Below, one piece after another: positions 14,176 to 25,833 of a stretch of 49,385 bases of DNA. The notes under the pieces were generated by a model, which saw only the letters and a list, made by a program, of their open reading frames with translations, was not told the DNA's origin and ran no database searches. The position numbers were made by a program, and so were the translations under genes. This DNA comes from Thermomicrobiales bacterium (lineage in GTDB: Bacteria; Chloroflexota; Chloroflexia; Thermomicrobiales; UBA6265), in the NCBI GenBank assembly GCA_020432165.1, contig JAGQGU010000017.1, positions 1 to 49,385 of the forward strand, in the 5' to 3' direction. The stretch's first letter is position 1; each line of letters starts with the position of its first letter.

Positions 14176-15234
14176 CTATGCTGGCAGCAATCCCTTGGCC
14201 TTCAGCAGTTCGGCATTGAGGATACCGGCACCAGCCGCACCGCGGATCGTGTTATGGCCGAGCAGGACGTACTTCAATCCGAGAACCGGGCAGGGGCGCA
14301 CACGGCCAACGACCGATGCCATACCGCGTTCGGTATCGCGATCCAGCTGTGGTTGCGGGCGATTGTCTTCATATCGCACCACCACCGGTCGCGCGGGAGC
14401 GCTGGGGAGTCCGAGTTCCTGTGGCAGCGCGCGGAAACTCTCGAATGTAGCGATGACATCAGCCGGAGTGGCGTCGCTGCCGAGTTCGATCGAGACGCAT
14501 TCGGTATGACCATCGCGCACCGGCACACGGTTGCAGTGCGCACTCAGCACGAAATCGGCGGTGTTGAATGCTCCATCAACGAATCCACCGAGCATCTTCA
14601 TCGCCTCGGTTTCCATCTTCTCTTCTTCGCTACCGATGTAGGGGACAACATTATCGATCATATCGAGGCTTGGTACGCCCGGGTAACCCGCACCGCTGAC
14701 CGCCTGCATGGTCGTGACCAGGACTTTCTTCAGTCCGAACGCATCCTGCAATGGTTTGAGCGTCAGCACCAGATGCATGACTGAACAGTTGGAGTTGGTG
14801 GTGATAAAGCCCTTCCAGCCGCGATTCGCCTGCTGGGTCTTGATCGCCGCCAGATGATCGGCATTCACCTCCGGGATAATCAGAGGCACATCCGGCTCCA
14901 TGCGATGGGTGGCGGTGTTGGAGACAACGGCGATGCCATTGGCTGCCAGACGGGTCTCGATCTCACCCGCAACTTCGCTTGGCAGACCACTGAATGCAAC
15001 AACACTCTGCAGATCGGCGCTGTAATCCAGCACGGTCATATCTCGTACTGCTTCGGGCATCTCAGCGCCCAGTCGCCAGACGGTCGCATCGCTGAACTTC
15101 TTGCCAGCACTACGTTCGCTGGCGACGAGCTCGGCTACCCGGAACCAGGGATGATCCTGCAGTAGCTGGATGAATCGCTGGCCAACATTGCCTGTAGCAC
15201 CAAGGACCGCGACCGGAATTCGATTGTCTGACAT
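14176..15234 (-). CDS. asd: Aspartate-semialdehyde dehydrogenase (archaeal/fungal type)
   Basis: This 352-residue enzyme makes L-aspartate-4-semialdehyde from aspartyl phosphate with NADPH, the second step of the Lys/Met/Thr/Ile pathway. Motifs are VAVLGATGNVGQRF (nucleotide binding, residues 8-21), the catalytic cysteine in TTNSNCSVMHL, and the acceptor segment VSGAGYPGVPSLDMIDN. The last block and the length place it with the archaeal/yeast-type ASADH, not the E. coli type. The ATG at 15234 follows GGGAGGAACAGCA, a good ribosome-binding site. It is 54 nt downstream of lysC and shares the lysC promoter and attenuator. A hairpin terminator follows its stop. Confidence 0.95.
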   Translation of the reverse strand: MSDNRIPVAVLGATGNVGQRFIQLLQDHPWFRVAELVASERSAGKKFSDATVWRLGAEMPEAVRDMTVLDYSADLQSVVAFSGLPSEVAGEIETRLAANGIAVVSNTATHRMEPDVPLIIPEVNADHLAAIKTQQANRGWKGFITTNSNCSVMHLVLTLKPLQDAFGLKKVLVTTMQAVSGAGYPGVPSLDMIDNVVPYIGSEEEKMETEAMKMLGGFVDGAFNTADFVLSAHCNRVPVRDGHTECVSIELGSDATPADVIATFESFRALPQELGLPSAPARPVVVRYEDNRPQPQLDRDTERGMASVVGRVRPCPVLGLKYVLLGHNTIRGAAGAGILNAELLKAKGLLPA

Positions 15235-15288: not shown

Positions 15289-16728
15289 TCACCCAACCCG
15301 ATATGTTTCGCCAAGAACATCCCGGCGGCGACCGCCACTGCGACGATGAGTCCGGGCGCTGCCGATCAGGCCATCGTGGACCACTTGCACCGCACTATCT
15401 GCAGCATCACCCGGTACCACCACAACCATGGCAGCATTGCTACTCTGTTGACTGCTGTTTAGCACCGGGACATTGGCGCGACTCAGTACCGCCAGTAACT
15501 GCGCCAGTGCACCCGGTGTGTTGGCGGCACCTTCGCCGACGGCAGCAACGACCGCGATGTCATCGACACAGGTGATATCTGCCTCGAGATCACCGAGAGA
15601 GACACGGAGCTTCTCGACGAAGACCTCGCAGCCGGATGCGAGCGTGTCCAAAATGAAGGTCATGGCGCGGCGGCTGCTCGCCTGTTGGGCAGAGATAATC
15701 TCGACGCGATTCTCATGGAGTGCATGGAACACCGCCGAGGATGCCCCGGCAAGATCCTCCAACTCCGGGACGTCGAGCGTCAGCATCGTTAGTCCCTTGA
15801 GCGCAGTGGTCGCCTTGATGCGCTGACTCTGTCCGCCTGGGCGCACCACGGTACCAGCATTGGTCGGCTGGAAGGTACTCAGGATGCGCACCGGGATACC
15901 CGCTTTTACCGCGGGTCGGATTGTGCGCGGATGCAGCACTTTCGCGCCGAAATGGGCGAGTTCTTGCGCTTCGTCATAGGTGACCTCCGGGATAACGCGG
16001 GCGGTGCTGACCTTGCGCGGATCGGCGCTGAGCATCCCCGGTACGTCGGTCCATATCTGGACCTCATCAGCATCGATCGCCGCACCGAGCAGGGTGGCAC
16101 TGTAGTCCGAACCACCGCGACCGAGCGTGGTCGTGCTGCCGTCCGGGGCAAAGCCGATGAAACCTGTGCAAACCACCGTCTCGCCTGCCTGCAGGTGCGG
16201 CAGGATGCGCTCGGCGGCGCGTTCTCTGGTGAGCTCTGGCTGCGGACGTGCCGATCCGTGGCGATCATCGGTCGCCAATACCTGATCGGTAAAGACGGCC
16301 ACTGCCTGTTCGCCCATATCGCGCAGGGTTGCGGCCATCATCGTTGCCATACTTTTTTCGCCGTGGGAGACGAGGAAGTCGGAACGTTTGGCGCAGAGTT
16401 CCTGTGCAGTGGCGATATCGTCCAACGTGGCATCGAGGGAAGCATGGAGTTGGTCGATAGCCGTCTGGGTTTGCAGGCGGATTGTTTCATCGCCGATCCC
16501 GCCAAGCACATTGGCGTGTTTCGTGTGGATCGCATTCACGGCCCGTTGGCGGGTAGCGTCATCACCGTTGGCAGCGGCATTGCCGGCTTCCAGGAGGAGA
16601 TTCGTCACACCACCGCAGGCGGAGACCACCATCACATTGGTACCGGGCTTGGTCAGCGTAATGCGTGCGCTCTCGCGAACTCTGCGCGCATCGCCGACCG
16701 AGGTACCGCCGTATTTCATCACCAACAT
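15289..16728 (-). CDS. lysC: Aspartate kinase
   Basis: This 479-residue aspartokinase phosphorylates L-aspartate, the first committed step to Lys, Met, Thr and Ile. The start LVMKYGGTSVGDA is the family signature; MVVSACGGVTNLLLEAG, GFIGFAPDGSTTTLGRGGSDYSA (split here by eye) and WTDVPGMLSADPR follow. The C-terminal third carries the two ACT regulatory domains (LTMLTLDVPELEDLAG... and IAVVAAVGEGAANTPG). I chose the ATG at 16728, which has a GGAG site 9 nt upstream; an open frame to 16938 runs through the leader terminator and is not plausible. Expression appears controlled by a Thr/Ile leader peptide and terminator upstream, and asd follows in the same operon. Confidence 0.95.
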   Translation of the reverse strand: MLVMKYGGTSVGDARRVRESARITLTKPGTNVMVVSACGGVTNLLLEAGNAAANGDDATRQRAVNAIHTKHANVLGGIGDETIRLQTQTAIDQLHASLDATLDDIATAQELCAKRSDFLVSHGEKSMATMMAATLRDMGEQAVAVFTDQVLATDDRHGSARPQPELTRERAAERILPHLQAGETVVCTGFIGFAPDGSTTTLGRGGSDYSATLLGAAIDADEVQIWTDVPGMLSADPRKVSTARVIPEVTYDEAQELAHFGAKVLHPRTIRPAVKAGIPVRILSTFQPTNAGTVVRPGGQSQRIKATTALKGLTMLTLDVPELEDLAGASSAVFHALHENRVEIISAQQASSRRAMTFILDTLASGCEVFVEKLRVSLGDLEADITCVDDIAVVAAVGEGAANTPGALAQLLAVLSRANVPVLNSSQQSSNAAMVVVVPGDAADSAVQVVHDGLIGSARTHRRSGGRRRDVLGETYRVG

Positions 16729-16835: not shown

Positions 16836-16862
16836 AAAAAAACGAGAGCTTCTTTGCTCTCG
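16836..16862 (-). terminator. Intrinsic terminator of the lysC leader (attenuator)
   Basis: On the minus strand the sequence CGAGAGC-AAAGAA-GCTCTCG forms a 7-bp stem with a 6-nt loop, followed by seven T residues. It lies 33 nt after the leader-peptide stop and about 108 nt before the lysC start, so it must be read through for lysC expression. AGCAAA (16853-16858), spanning the 5' arm and loop, can instead pair with TTTGCT (16897-16902) at the leader stop. Confidence 0.85.
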
Positions 16863-16919
16863 CCTGCCGCCCCGTGGTGCTTCTGACGTGTTCGTCAGCA
16901 AACCTCCGGCTCGGCAGGC
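16862..16919 (-). promoter_or_regulatory. Alternative stems of the lysC attenuator
   Basis: On the minus strand GCCTGCCG (16912-16919) pairs perfectly with CGGCAGGC (16862-16869), enclosing the hairpin CTGACG-AACA-CGTCAG. The first arm starts a few bases after the Thr/Ile codons, where a stalled ribosome would cover it. The second arm abuts the terminator. This gives the mutually dependent structures expected of translation-controlled attenuation; the exact pairing order is inference. Confidence 0.6.
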
Positions 16920-17005
16920 CAGCGAATAATAGTCTCAATAATGGTAGTCATCATCGAGGGGGACATTCGCAGATCCGTGCCGGTGGTGGTCATCAGCGCA
17001 CTCAT
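16895..17005 (-). CDS. Thr/Ile-rich leader peptide of the lysC-asd operon (thrL-like)
   Basis: This 36-codon open frame runs from ATG at 17005 to TGA at 16895, and in-frame ATGs also occur at 16993, 16966, 16954 and 16951. Near its end it encodes MMTTIIETII followed by RWPAEPEVC; an earlier stretch is MTTTGT. Thr and Ile make up seven of the ten residues in the key run. They are the end products of the pathway that lysC and asd feed, as in the E. coli thr leader. A matching promoter lies just upstream and an intrinsic terminator 33 nt downstream. No strong ribosome-binding site is seen. The ATG at 17005 lies about 10 nt after the -10 box, so near-leaderless translation is possible, or initiation at an internal ATG. 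Confidence 0.75.
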   Translation of the reverse strand: MSALMTTTGTDLRMSPSMMTTIIETIIRWPAEPEVC

Positions 17006-17014
17006 CACAGCATC

Positions 17015-17043
17015 ACTATAGGTTTACACACCGAAGATTGCAA
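17015..17043 (-). promoter_or_regulatory. Promoter of the lysC-asd leader
   Basis: On the minus strand there is a -35 TTGCAA (17038-17043), a 17-bp spacer and a -10 TATAGT (17015-17020). The predicted transcription start is within a few bases of the leader ATG at 17005. Confidence 0.7.
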
Positions 17044-17153: not shown

Positions 17154-18068
17154 TTACTCAGAATCGGGTTTGCTCCGACCGTAAGCGTAGCCCGCGATTG
17201 TGCCGAAGAGTGTCAGCACCGCGGTGAACTCGTGAGCAATGATGCCGATCACGACGGCGAAGCCCAGAATCAGAATGCTCGTCACGAGTGTTCCCCAGCC
17301 CGCAGTTGGATTTGGCAGTGTCGCGATGTCTTTGCGCGCTTCGGCGAGGACAATGATATCGAAGGTGGCTTCTCCTTCGGCTCCCTCAATCGTCGCCATG
17401 AGTGTCACTGTACCCACCACAGAAGGCAGCACGCGAACTGTTGCTCCCGCCTGCTTTGTCCAGCCATGAGCACTGTCCTTGAGTGACCACTTGATCGTGA
17501 GATTCGTGGTATCGACCGCAGTGCCGTCATCAGCAGATGTCACCGATGCGGTATACGCGCCCTCCTGATTGAGTACCAGTTCGGCTGGACCCGTGATCTT
17601 CACGTTGTATTTAGGAGTCGGAGGTGGTTCTTTTTGGCCAGGCACCAACGTTTTCATTGGTGGCTGGCGTTCAAATACCGTCGAATCCTGCGAGATCGTT
17701 ACGCTCAAACCTCGTTTGAGGTACTCGTTATGCAGCGCAATATACCGATCCTCCGACCGATCGAAGCGTCTCAGGGCAAGACCAATGACTAACCCAACGA
17801 TAGTGAGCACGGCGAGAACGACCCAGAACTCAAACTTGGTATCTGCTGGCCACGACCACCAGGAGGAACTCTCATCCTCTCCCTTGTTGGCTGGAGGAGT
17901 CGCGACATCGGCAGGTGCGGATGTCGCCTCTGGAGCCTCCGTCGCAACCGGGGTGGCGTCTTGTGCCGATGTATTGCCCAAATGGGAATCAGCCTGTGTG
18001 AAGACAGCCAGGGCGGTCATTGCGACGAGGAATGCGATGACAGAAAGCACCGGATATCGCTTTAACAT
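17154..18068 (-). CDS. Membrane protein with Ig-like extracytoplasmic domain, unknown function
   Basis: This protein of about 304 residues has an N-terminal signal or anchor segment (VLSVIAFLVAMTALAVF). A low-complexity linker rich in Ala, Thr, Pro and Glu follows, then a hydrophobic helix (FWVVLAVLTIVGLVIGLAL). A beta-rich Ig/invasin-like domain (VKITGPAELVLNQEGAYTAS to GEATFDIIVLAE) comes next, and two hydrophobic segments close the protein. The domain is like those that follow 'P-x-x-v-x-x-G-x-x-x-x-x-a' patterns in bacterial surface proteins. I chose the ATG at 18068 because GAGGAG lies 7 nt upstream; the ATG at 18074 is too close to it. GTGATA-N9-TATCAC at 18120-18140 upstream may be an operator. 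Confidence 0.75.
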   Translation of the reverse strand: MLKRYPVLSVIAFLVAMTALAVFTQADSHLGNTSAQDATPVATEAPEATSAPADVATPPANKGEDESSSWWSWPADTKFEFWVVLAVLTIVGLVIGLALRRFDRSEDRYIALHNEYLKRGLSVTISQDSTVFERQPPMKTLVPGQKEPPPTPKYNVKITGPAELVLNQEGAYTASVTSADDGTAVDTTNLTIKWSLKDSAHGWTKQAGATVRVLPSVVGTVTLMATIEGAEGEATFDIIVLAEARKDIATLPNPTAGWGTLVTSILILGFAVVIGIIAHEFTAVLTLFGTIAGYAYGRSKPDSE

Positions 18069-18313
18069 GGGCATACTCCTCAACTCGTGCCGATCCGCAT
18101 ATATTCCCCAGCTGCTTGTGTGATAGTCCTACGTTATCACGACGAAGACCGAATTCAAGAGGTATCGGAGCCGTACCTTATCAAGTCATGGATTGTGGTG
18201 AAGTAGCGCAATGCTATGGATGAAGTCCCTTTCCCGCCACCCCATTCCGCGGTACGCTATCAAAGTTGAAGTGTTGGATTGGGTCGCAATGTGGCGACCG
18301 GAAAGGGACCACC

Positions 18314-25640: not shown

Positions 25641-25663
25641 GTTCGAACCAACCGAAAACTTTC

Positions 25664-25776
25664 TGGCCGCAGACAGTCGGTGTGAGTGATCACTTAATTC
25701 CCGACCGAGGCTCAGGTACATGCACATTCACCTCTGTGAATCGCGCCCTGGGCTGCCACTGGCCCAGGGCGTTTTT
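25664..25776 (+). ncRNA. L10 leader (rplJL autoregulatory RNA) with intrinsic terminator
   Basis: The rplA-rplJ spacer carries the conserved L10-leader blocks GCAGACAGTCGGTG and CTTAATTCCCGACCGAGG, which bind the L10-(L12)4 complex in other bacteria. It is followed by a 10-bp hairpin CGCCCTGGGC / GCCCAGGGCG (25744-25771) and TTTTT (25772-25776), an attenuator-type terminator before rplJ. Excess L10 would favour termination; that last step is inference from other bacteria. Confidence 0.85.
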
Positions 25777-25833
25777 CGTGAGGCTACGGGAGAGAATCCC
25801 GGAAAAATCTGAAACAGGGAGGAGGTGAATAAC

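Follow-up and report, generated by a model that had tools for sequence, protein, structure and literature searches.

Most descriptions of classical attenuation come from Proteobacteria and Actinobacteria. In E. coli and other gamma-proteobacteria, the thrL-thrABC locus combines a Thr/Ile-rich leader peptide with an antiterminator and a terminator, and controls entry into the Thr branch of the aspartate pathway. Literature searches on attenuation in Thermomicrobium, Sphaerobacter and Chloroflexi found no relevant report. In the C. glutamicum ilvBNC leader, the start codon lies one nucleotide from the transcript start, and a three-hairpin model includes an anti-antiterminator, an antiterminator and a terminator (PMC11857589). 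Mycobacterial polycysteine short ORFs are leaderless (Canestrari et al. 2020, doi 10.1111/mmi.14498), according to the passage of PMC13236596 that cites this work. A survey that predicted attenuators in Actinobacteria reports that the threonine and lysine operons there are not preceded by a conserved RNA element (PMC1262725).

The window, i.e. the whole stretch of 49,385 nucleotides analysed here (contig JAGQGU010000017.1 of a Thermomicrobiales bacterium, phylum Chloroflexota), carries a candidate attenuator in front of lysC and asd. As in the E. coli thr operon, a Thr/Ile-rich leader peptide is followed by an antiterminator and a terminator. However, the Thermomicrobiales element occurs in a different phylum, has no Rfam match, and would control asd or lysC-asd rather than an operon for a fused aspartokinase-homoserine dehydrogenase; in the family of the window, the leader is, moreover, probably leaderless. 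A probably leaderless start, a possible anti-antiterminator and the overlap of terminator and antiterminator would be shared with C. glutamicum ilvBNC, which differs in having branched-chain codons, in belonging to Actinobacteria and in the operon controlled (PMC11857589). The mycobacterial cysteine leaders resemble the Thermomicrobiales leader as short, in the latter case probably, leaderless ORFs with codon runs for the regulating amino acid, but they respond to cysteine and are described in work cited in PMC13236596 as acting by translational attenuation, whereas the Thermomicrobiales leader has a conserved intrinsic terminator. The attenuators predicted in Actinobacteria belong to the same class and were also found by comparative genomics (PMC1262725). 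The class of mechanism is already known (trp/thr/his/ilv type attenuation). The element is real and conserved and is most likely a Thr (plus Ile) ribosome-mediated attenuator, for which no earlier description was found in this phylum and on these genes.

Organisation and conservation of the lysC upstream region

The lysC and asd genes (Table 1) are adjacent in the family of the window, and lysC is the single match for aspartate kinase in a search of the window's genome. The 425-bp gap reported in the earlier note between lysC and the next ORF was confirmed, as were the promoter TTGCAA-17-TATAGT (17043-17015, (-)) and the terminator with seven T (16862-16836, (-)), which ends 107 nt upstream of the lysC ATG at 16728 (-). 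The short frame described there has 36 codons when counted from the ATG, but it opens one codon earlier at a GTG and thus comprises 37 codons (17008-16895, (-)), reading MSALMTTTGTDLRMSPSMMTTIIETIIRWPAEPEVC after the initiator. Further upstream of the attenuator, 17154-18083 (-) encodes a 309-aa protein without an NCBIfam match.

Table 1. Positions of the attenuator features and of the downstream genes in the window.
Feature	Position	Strand	Remarks
-35 element TTGCAA	17038..17043	(-)	TTGC in 21/22 f1 members, TTGA in one
-10 element TATAGT	17015..17020	(-)	17 nt from -35; leader start codon 6 nt later
Leader peptide ORF, (M)MSALMTTTGTDLRMSPSMMTTIIETIIRWPAEPEVC*	16895..17008	(-)	GTG start, 37 codons, probably leaderless; Thr/Ile enrichment across relatives
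First control cluster, Thr-Thr-Thr-Gly-Thr (ACC ACC ACC GGC ACG)	16976..16990	(-)	Also region 1 (next row)
Region 1 (same span as first control cluster)	16976..16990	(-)	Able to pair with region 2; seen in the MFE fold of the leader ORF RNA in most f1 members
Second control cluster, Thr-Thr-Ile-Ile-Glu-Thr-Ile-Ile	16925..16948	(-)	Overlaps hairpin 16958-16934
Region 2, antiterminator 5' arm, GCCTGCCG	16912..16919	(-)	Inside the ORF; compensatory changes
Region 3, antiterminator 3' arm, CGGCAGGC	16862..16869	(-)	Its 3'-most three bases (16864-16862) are shared with the closing pairs of the terminator
Terminator hairpin CGAGAGC-AAAGAA-GCTCTCG (regions 3 and 4)	16843..16862	(-)	
Terminator U tract, seven T	16836..16842	(-)	
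lysC, aspartate kinase, first operon gene	15289..16728	(-)	TIGR00657, 357 bits, cut-off 209
asd, aspartate-semialdehyde dehydrogenase, second gene	14176..15234	(-)	TIGR00978, 455 bits, cut-off 301

The promoter is the sole promoter-like match in the 1.6 kb scanned, where 0.6 such matches are expected by chance; hence it is not significant by itself. Taken alone, the window leader shows a modest excess of T+I (binomial P 0.004), and no 8-residue stretch with at least seven T/I was found among the 13,701 8-mers taken from the long ORFs of the window. The fold of the leader RNA lies 5.3 standard deviations below those of dinucleotide shuffles.

It is the conservation in relatives, rather than the window leader alone, that makes the attenuator reading convincing. 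All available upstream regions of the window's family (f1) were collected using lysC as the hook, which gave 22 genomes from 15 genera with lysC identity down to ~53%. All 22 readable regions share one order of parts, from the promoter through the short ORF and the antiterminator arms to the terminator, and the family shows the Thr/Ile-rich short frames and covarying stems for which the earlier note proposed to search relatives. The family promoter resembles TTGC-17-TATAGT. The f1 leaders were the top matches in their genomes to a covariance model of the element. In 21 of the 22 genomes, the gap between the -10 hexamer and the start codon is 6 or 7 nt; hence, the ribosome would begin at the very 5' end, and the f1 leader peptide is probably leaderless, with the 5' end of the transcript at or near the start codon.

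Thr and Ile account for 20.8% and 11.5%, respectively, of the 688 residues of the f1 leader peptides, whereas the long ORFs of the window contain 6.7% Thr and 6.0% Ile. The peptide sequences diverge while this composition is kept. Two relatives (L011 and L019) have longer frames of 53-55 codons with an extra N-terminal part, in which region 2 is preceded, as usual, by a Thr/Ile run. In another (L016:1292-1479, genome G008), small deletions removed the leader stop, and the frame reads 70 codons through the terminator with the stems kept; the loss reflects either an error in the assembly or decay of this copy.

Alternative RNA structures and the proposed switch

The sequences TTTGCT (16902-16897) and AGCAAA (16858-16853), put forward in the earlier note as the antiterminator, both exist. 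This pairing is not conserved and was rejected as no better than shuffles (59.5% of cells paired versus 57.7% in shuffles). The supported, covarying pairing is that of GCCTGCCG (16919-16912) with CGGCAGGC (16869-16862), in which GCCTGCC (16919-16913) pairs with GGCAGGC (16868-16862), three bases being common with the terminator. Region 2 starts 22-25 nt 5' of the leader stop codon in 18 of the 22 f1 relatives.

The f1 terminator, present in 22/22, consists of a 10-pair stem with 88.6% of cells paired over the 22 sequences. Changes on both sides are seen in both helices and occur at 9/20 pairs of the antiterminator and terminator taken together, and the covariation of the stems is 0.164 versus 0.102 when shuffled, a value reached by 0/500 shuffles. 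The bases common to both stems are paired in at least 21 of the 22 sequences in either structure. Mutual exclusion in f1 concerns the closing pairs only, the last GGC of region 3 being the part that closes the terminator.

Region 2 has a further partner upstream. Part of region 1, ACC ACC GGC A, which codes for TTG[T/M], pairs with region 2 around the hairpin in which the second control cluster lies, and this 1:2 fold is the MFE structure of the leader ORF RNA in most f1 members. In 21 of the 22 members, the leader ORF RNA folds more stably than its synonymous recodings do on average (mean z -2.2).

As judged by these data, the element is very probably a ribosome-mediated transcription attenuator that couples lysC-asd to charged threonyl-tRNA and, in f1, probably to isoleucyl-tRNA as well. 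The kind of mechanism suggested in the earlier note, ribosome-mediated attenuation of lysC-asd in a member of the Chloroflexota, is thus well supported by sequence comparison. RNA polymerase would start at the leader GTG/ATG or within ~1 nt of it, and ribosomes would load on the leaderless mRNA. When Thr (or Ile) is scarce, a ribosome would stall within either the ACC-rich cluster or the TTIIETII run and mask or open region 1, leaving region 2 free to pair with region 3. The 2:3 pairing would take away the terminator's three lowest base pairs, those beside the U tract, and allow read-through into lysC-asd. When Thr is plentiful, the ribosome would be over region 2, region 3 would go to the terminator, and transcription would stop; with the leader untranslated, the RNA could fold region 1 onto region 2. 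The predicted sign of the response is activation on starvation. Dozens of related bacteria have retained the switch and so probably activate the pathway, whose first steps towards threonine and lysine are encoded by these genes, when threonine is short and the ribosome stalls.

Folding was modelled at equilibrium on RNA ending at region 3, with the ribosome position varied. When the ribosome is stalled on upstream T/I codons, the 2:3 pairing has a mean probability of 0.95, as against 0.00 when the ribosome covers region 2; a ribosome stalled on the T/I codons adjoining region 2 would mask it in the model. With no ribosome, the value is 0.91, i.e. the 2:3 pairing usually wins at equilibrium, and the near identity with the stalled state indicates that region 1 is a weak protector under these conditions. 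A ribosome at the stop codon leaves outer region 2 bare in many relatives (mean 2:3 probability 0.68), and in one of them (L014) the model forms no terminator in this state. The decision to terminate would have to fall during the time that the ribosome covers region 2, which is a kinetic point.

For the full window leader, the closing pairs of the terminator have probabilities of 0.20-0.37 for stalls at T7, T9, T11 and I23, and 0.97 with a ribosome at the stop codon. The antiterminator and the 6-bp core of the terminator can coexist at equilibrium in the window's genome, and since the closing pairs alone are lost, the predicted switch may be weak there. In full-length leaders of the sister families (f2 and f3), the terminator is favoured at equilibrium in most stalled states, and mostly regardless of where the ribosome stands; as such folds reveal little of a switch governed by kinetics, the modelling above used RNA that ends at region 3.

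Related element upstream of asd and the nature of the signal

Weaker matches to the covariance model in the sister families lie upstream of asd, not lysC, and the element was found there in 23 genomes (5 of f2 and 18 of f3). The antiterminator shows 27 cells changed on both sides and a covariation score of 0.287 versus 0.133 shuffled, and has 4-6 bases in common with the terminator. In f3, GCCGGCGTAC pairs with GTACGCCGGC, and GCCGGC of the latter doubles as the 5' arm of the terminator. In nearly all f2/f3 loci, 35-96 nt lie between the best promoter and the leader ORF; at L205, the promoter scan preferred a weaker site further away. The same logic in two gene contexts makes coincidence very unlikely and points to asd as the common target.

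The homoserine dehydrogenase gene is divergent and adjoins the attenuated asd in f2/f3 (e.g. G033:C5, G042:C55) and is located elsewhere in f1; neither a leader nor a terminator was found at hom in three genomes of the window's family (G000, G007 and G012). The asd upstream element is absent from the genomes of two other families of the order, f4 (2 genomes) and f5 (1), and from 20 genomes that sample other orders of the class. At L234, outside the element-bearing families, the asd upstream reading contains one unrelated terminator. Among the remaining covariance-model matches, those at G000:C48, G000:C53 and G007:C9 are weak and resemble ordinary terminators at gene ends, and that at G053:C70 overlaps a tRNA-like 3' end; all were rejected. 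Leader DNA matches at G000:C2 and G044:C48, with no leader or terminator there, were judged to be due to chance.

The proposal that Thr and Ile are the signal holds across families for Thr, whereas Ile is enriched only in the family of the window. It is quite possible, although we do not favour it, that Thr alone is sensed, a variant within attenuation in which the Ile (and Met) codons would be incidental or would tune stalling. The leaders of f2/f3 include 22.6% Thr in 553 residues, yet their 6.1% Ile is equal to the background (binomial P 0.47) and nine of them have no Ile at all; Met is enriched in a few f1 leaders only. On the other hand, the Ile content of the f1 leaders reaches the 11.5% given above, with runs such as TTIIETII and GIGIIIRW, and sensing of Ile would make metabolic sense since Thr is its precursor. 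A metabolite riboswitch or a T-box in place of a leader read by the ribosome could account for the highly structured RNA (z -5.3), and aspartate kinase genes of other bacteria are often under a lysine riboswitch. This is, however, extremely unlikely: a search of the window and its relatives against Rfam, including the thr leader, lysine riboswitch and T-box, gave no match to the element over the gathering threshold nor any family near it, and only chance matches to the leaders at a relaxed threshold. Furthermore, what is conserved is a set of stems and the Thr codons of an open frame rather than a binding-pocket motif, and the Thr codons stay while leader length and peptide vary among relatives. 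Elsewhere in the window, an ordinary known element, the ribosomal protein L10 leader (Rfam RF00557, 49.5 bits), is located at 25649-25786 (+).

In the window alone, the modest T+I excess (P 0.004) and a promoter match within chance would also fit an ordinary terminator next to a chance ORF, or a constitutive leader that senses no amino acid, but the order-wide conservation, the covariation and the Thr enrichment in two gene contexts render this scarcely credible. Action mainly on translation, or of the peptide in trans, has precedents in the mycobacterial leaderless cysteine leaders, described as translation attenuation in work cited in PMC13236596, and in the trans-acting leader peptide peTrpL (PMC7298713). 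Such action is nevertheless very unlikely here, given a terminator 107 nt before the lysC start that is present in 22/22 and a peptide that is poorly conserved apart from its composition and the codons over region 2.

Possible further attenuators in Thermomicrobiales

It appears reasonably likely that Thermomicrobiales possess a home-grown set of ribosome-read attenuators (Thr, aromatic and branched-chain), in which the target of the Thr attenuator differs by family and its leader appears to have switched between Shine-Dalgarno and leaderless forms. An order-wide Thr attenuator accompanying asd, together with the aromatic and branched-chain ones, would extend the mechanism to another phylum. 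The Shine-Dalgarno and leaderless forms of one element would represent a natural experiment on initiation mode and translation-coupled termination, and comparison of such natural pairs would allow a test of how leaderless initiation affects attenuation.

The search for other attenuators relied on gene searches alone. Within the genome of the window, a leader with aromatic residues (SVYFYYWFTNPP) and a terminator precede the DAHP synthase gene (L311, G000:C61:27600-28700, reverse strand), with the promoter arranged as TTGACA-17-TACGCT-6 nt-ATG. Nearly all DAHP synthase loci of the order that were read (L241-L270) have a short frame rich in aromatic residues upstream, and the leader is conserved in most of the order. 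The same genome has a branched-chain leader (TVVVLLITGLLLVG; MKRFPLFTVVVLLITGLLLVGSICGERGQRAA) and a terminator before ilvB (L314, G000:C76:92800-97000, about 1430-1580), and a similar frame is present in G007 (L316).
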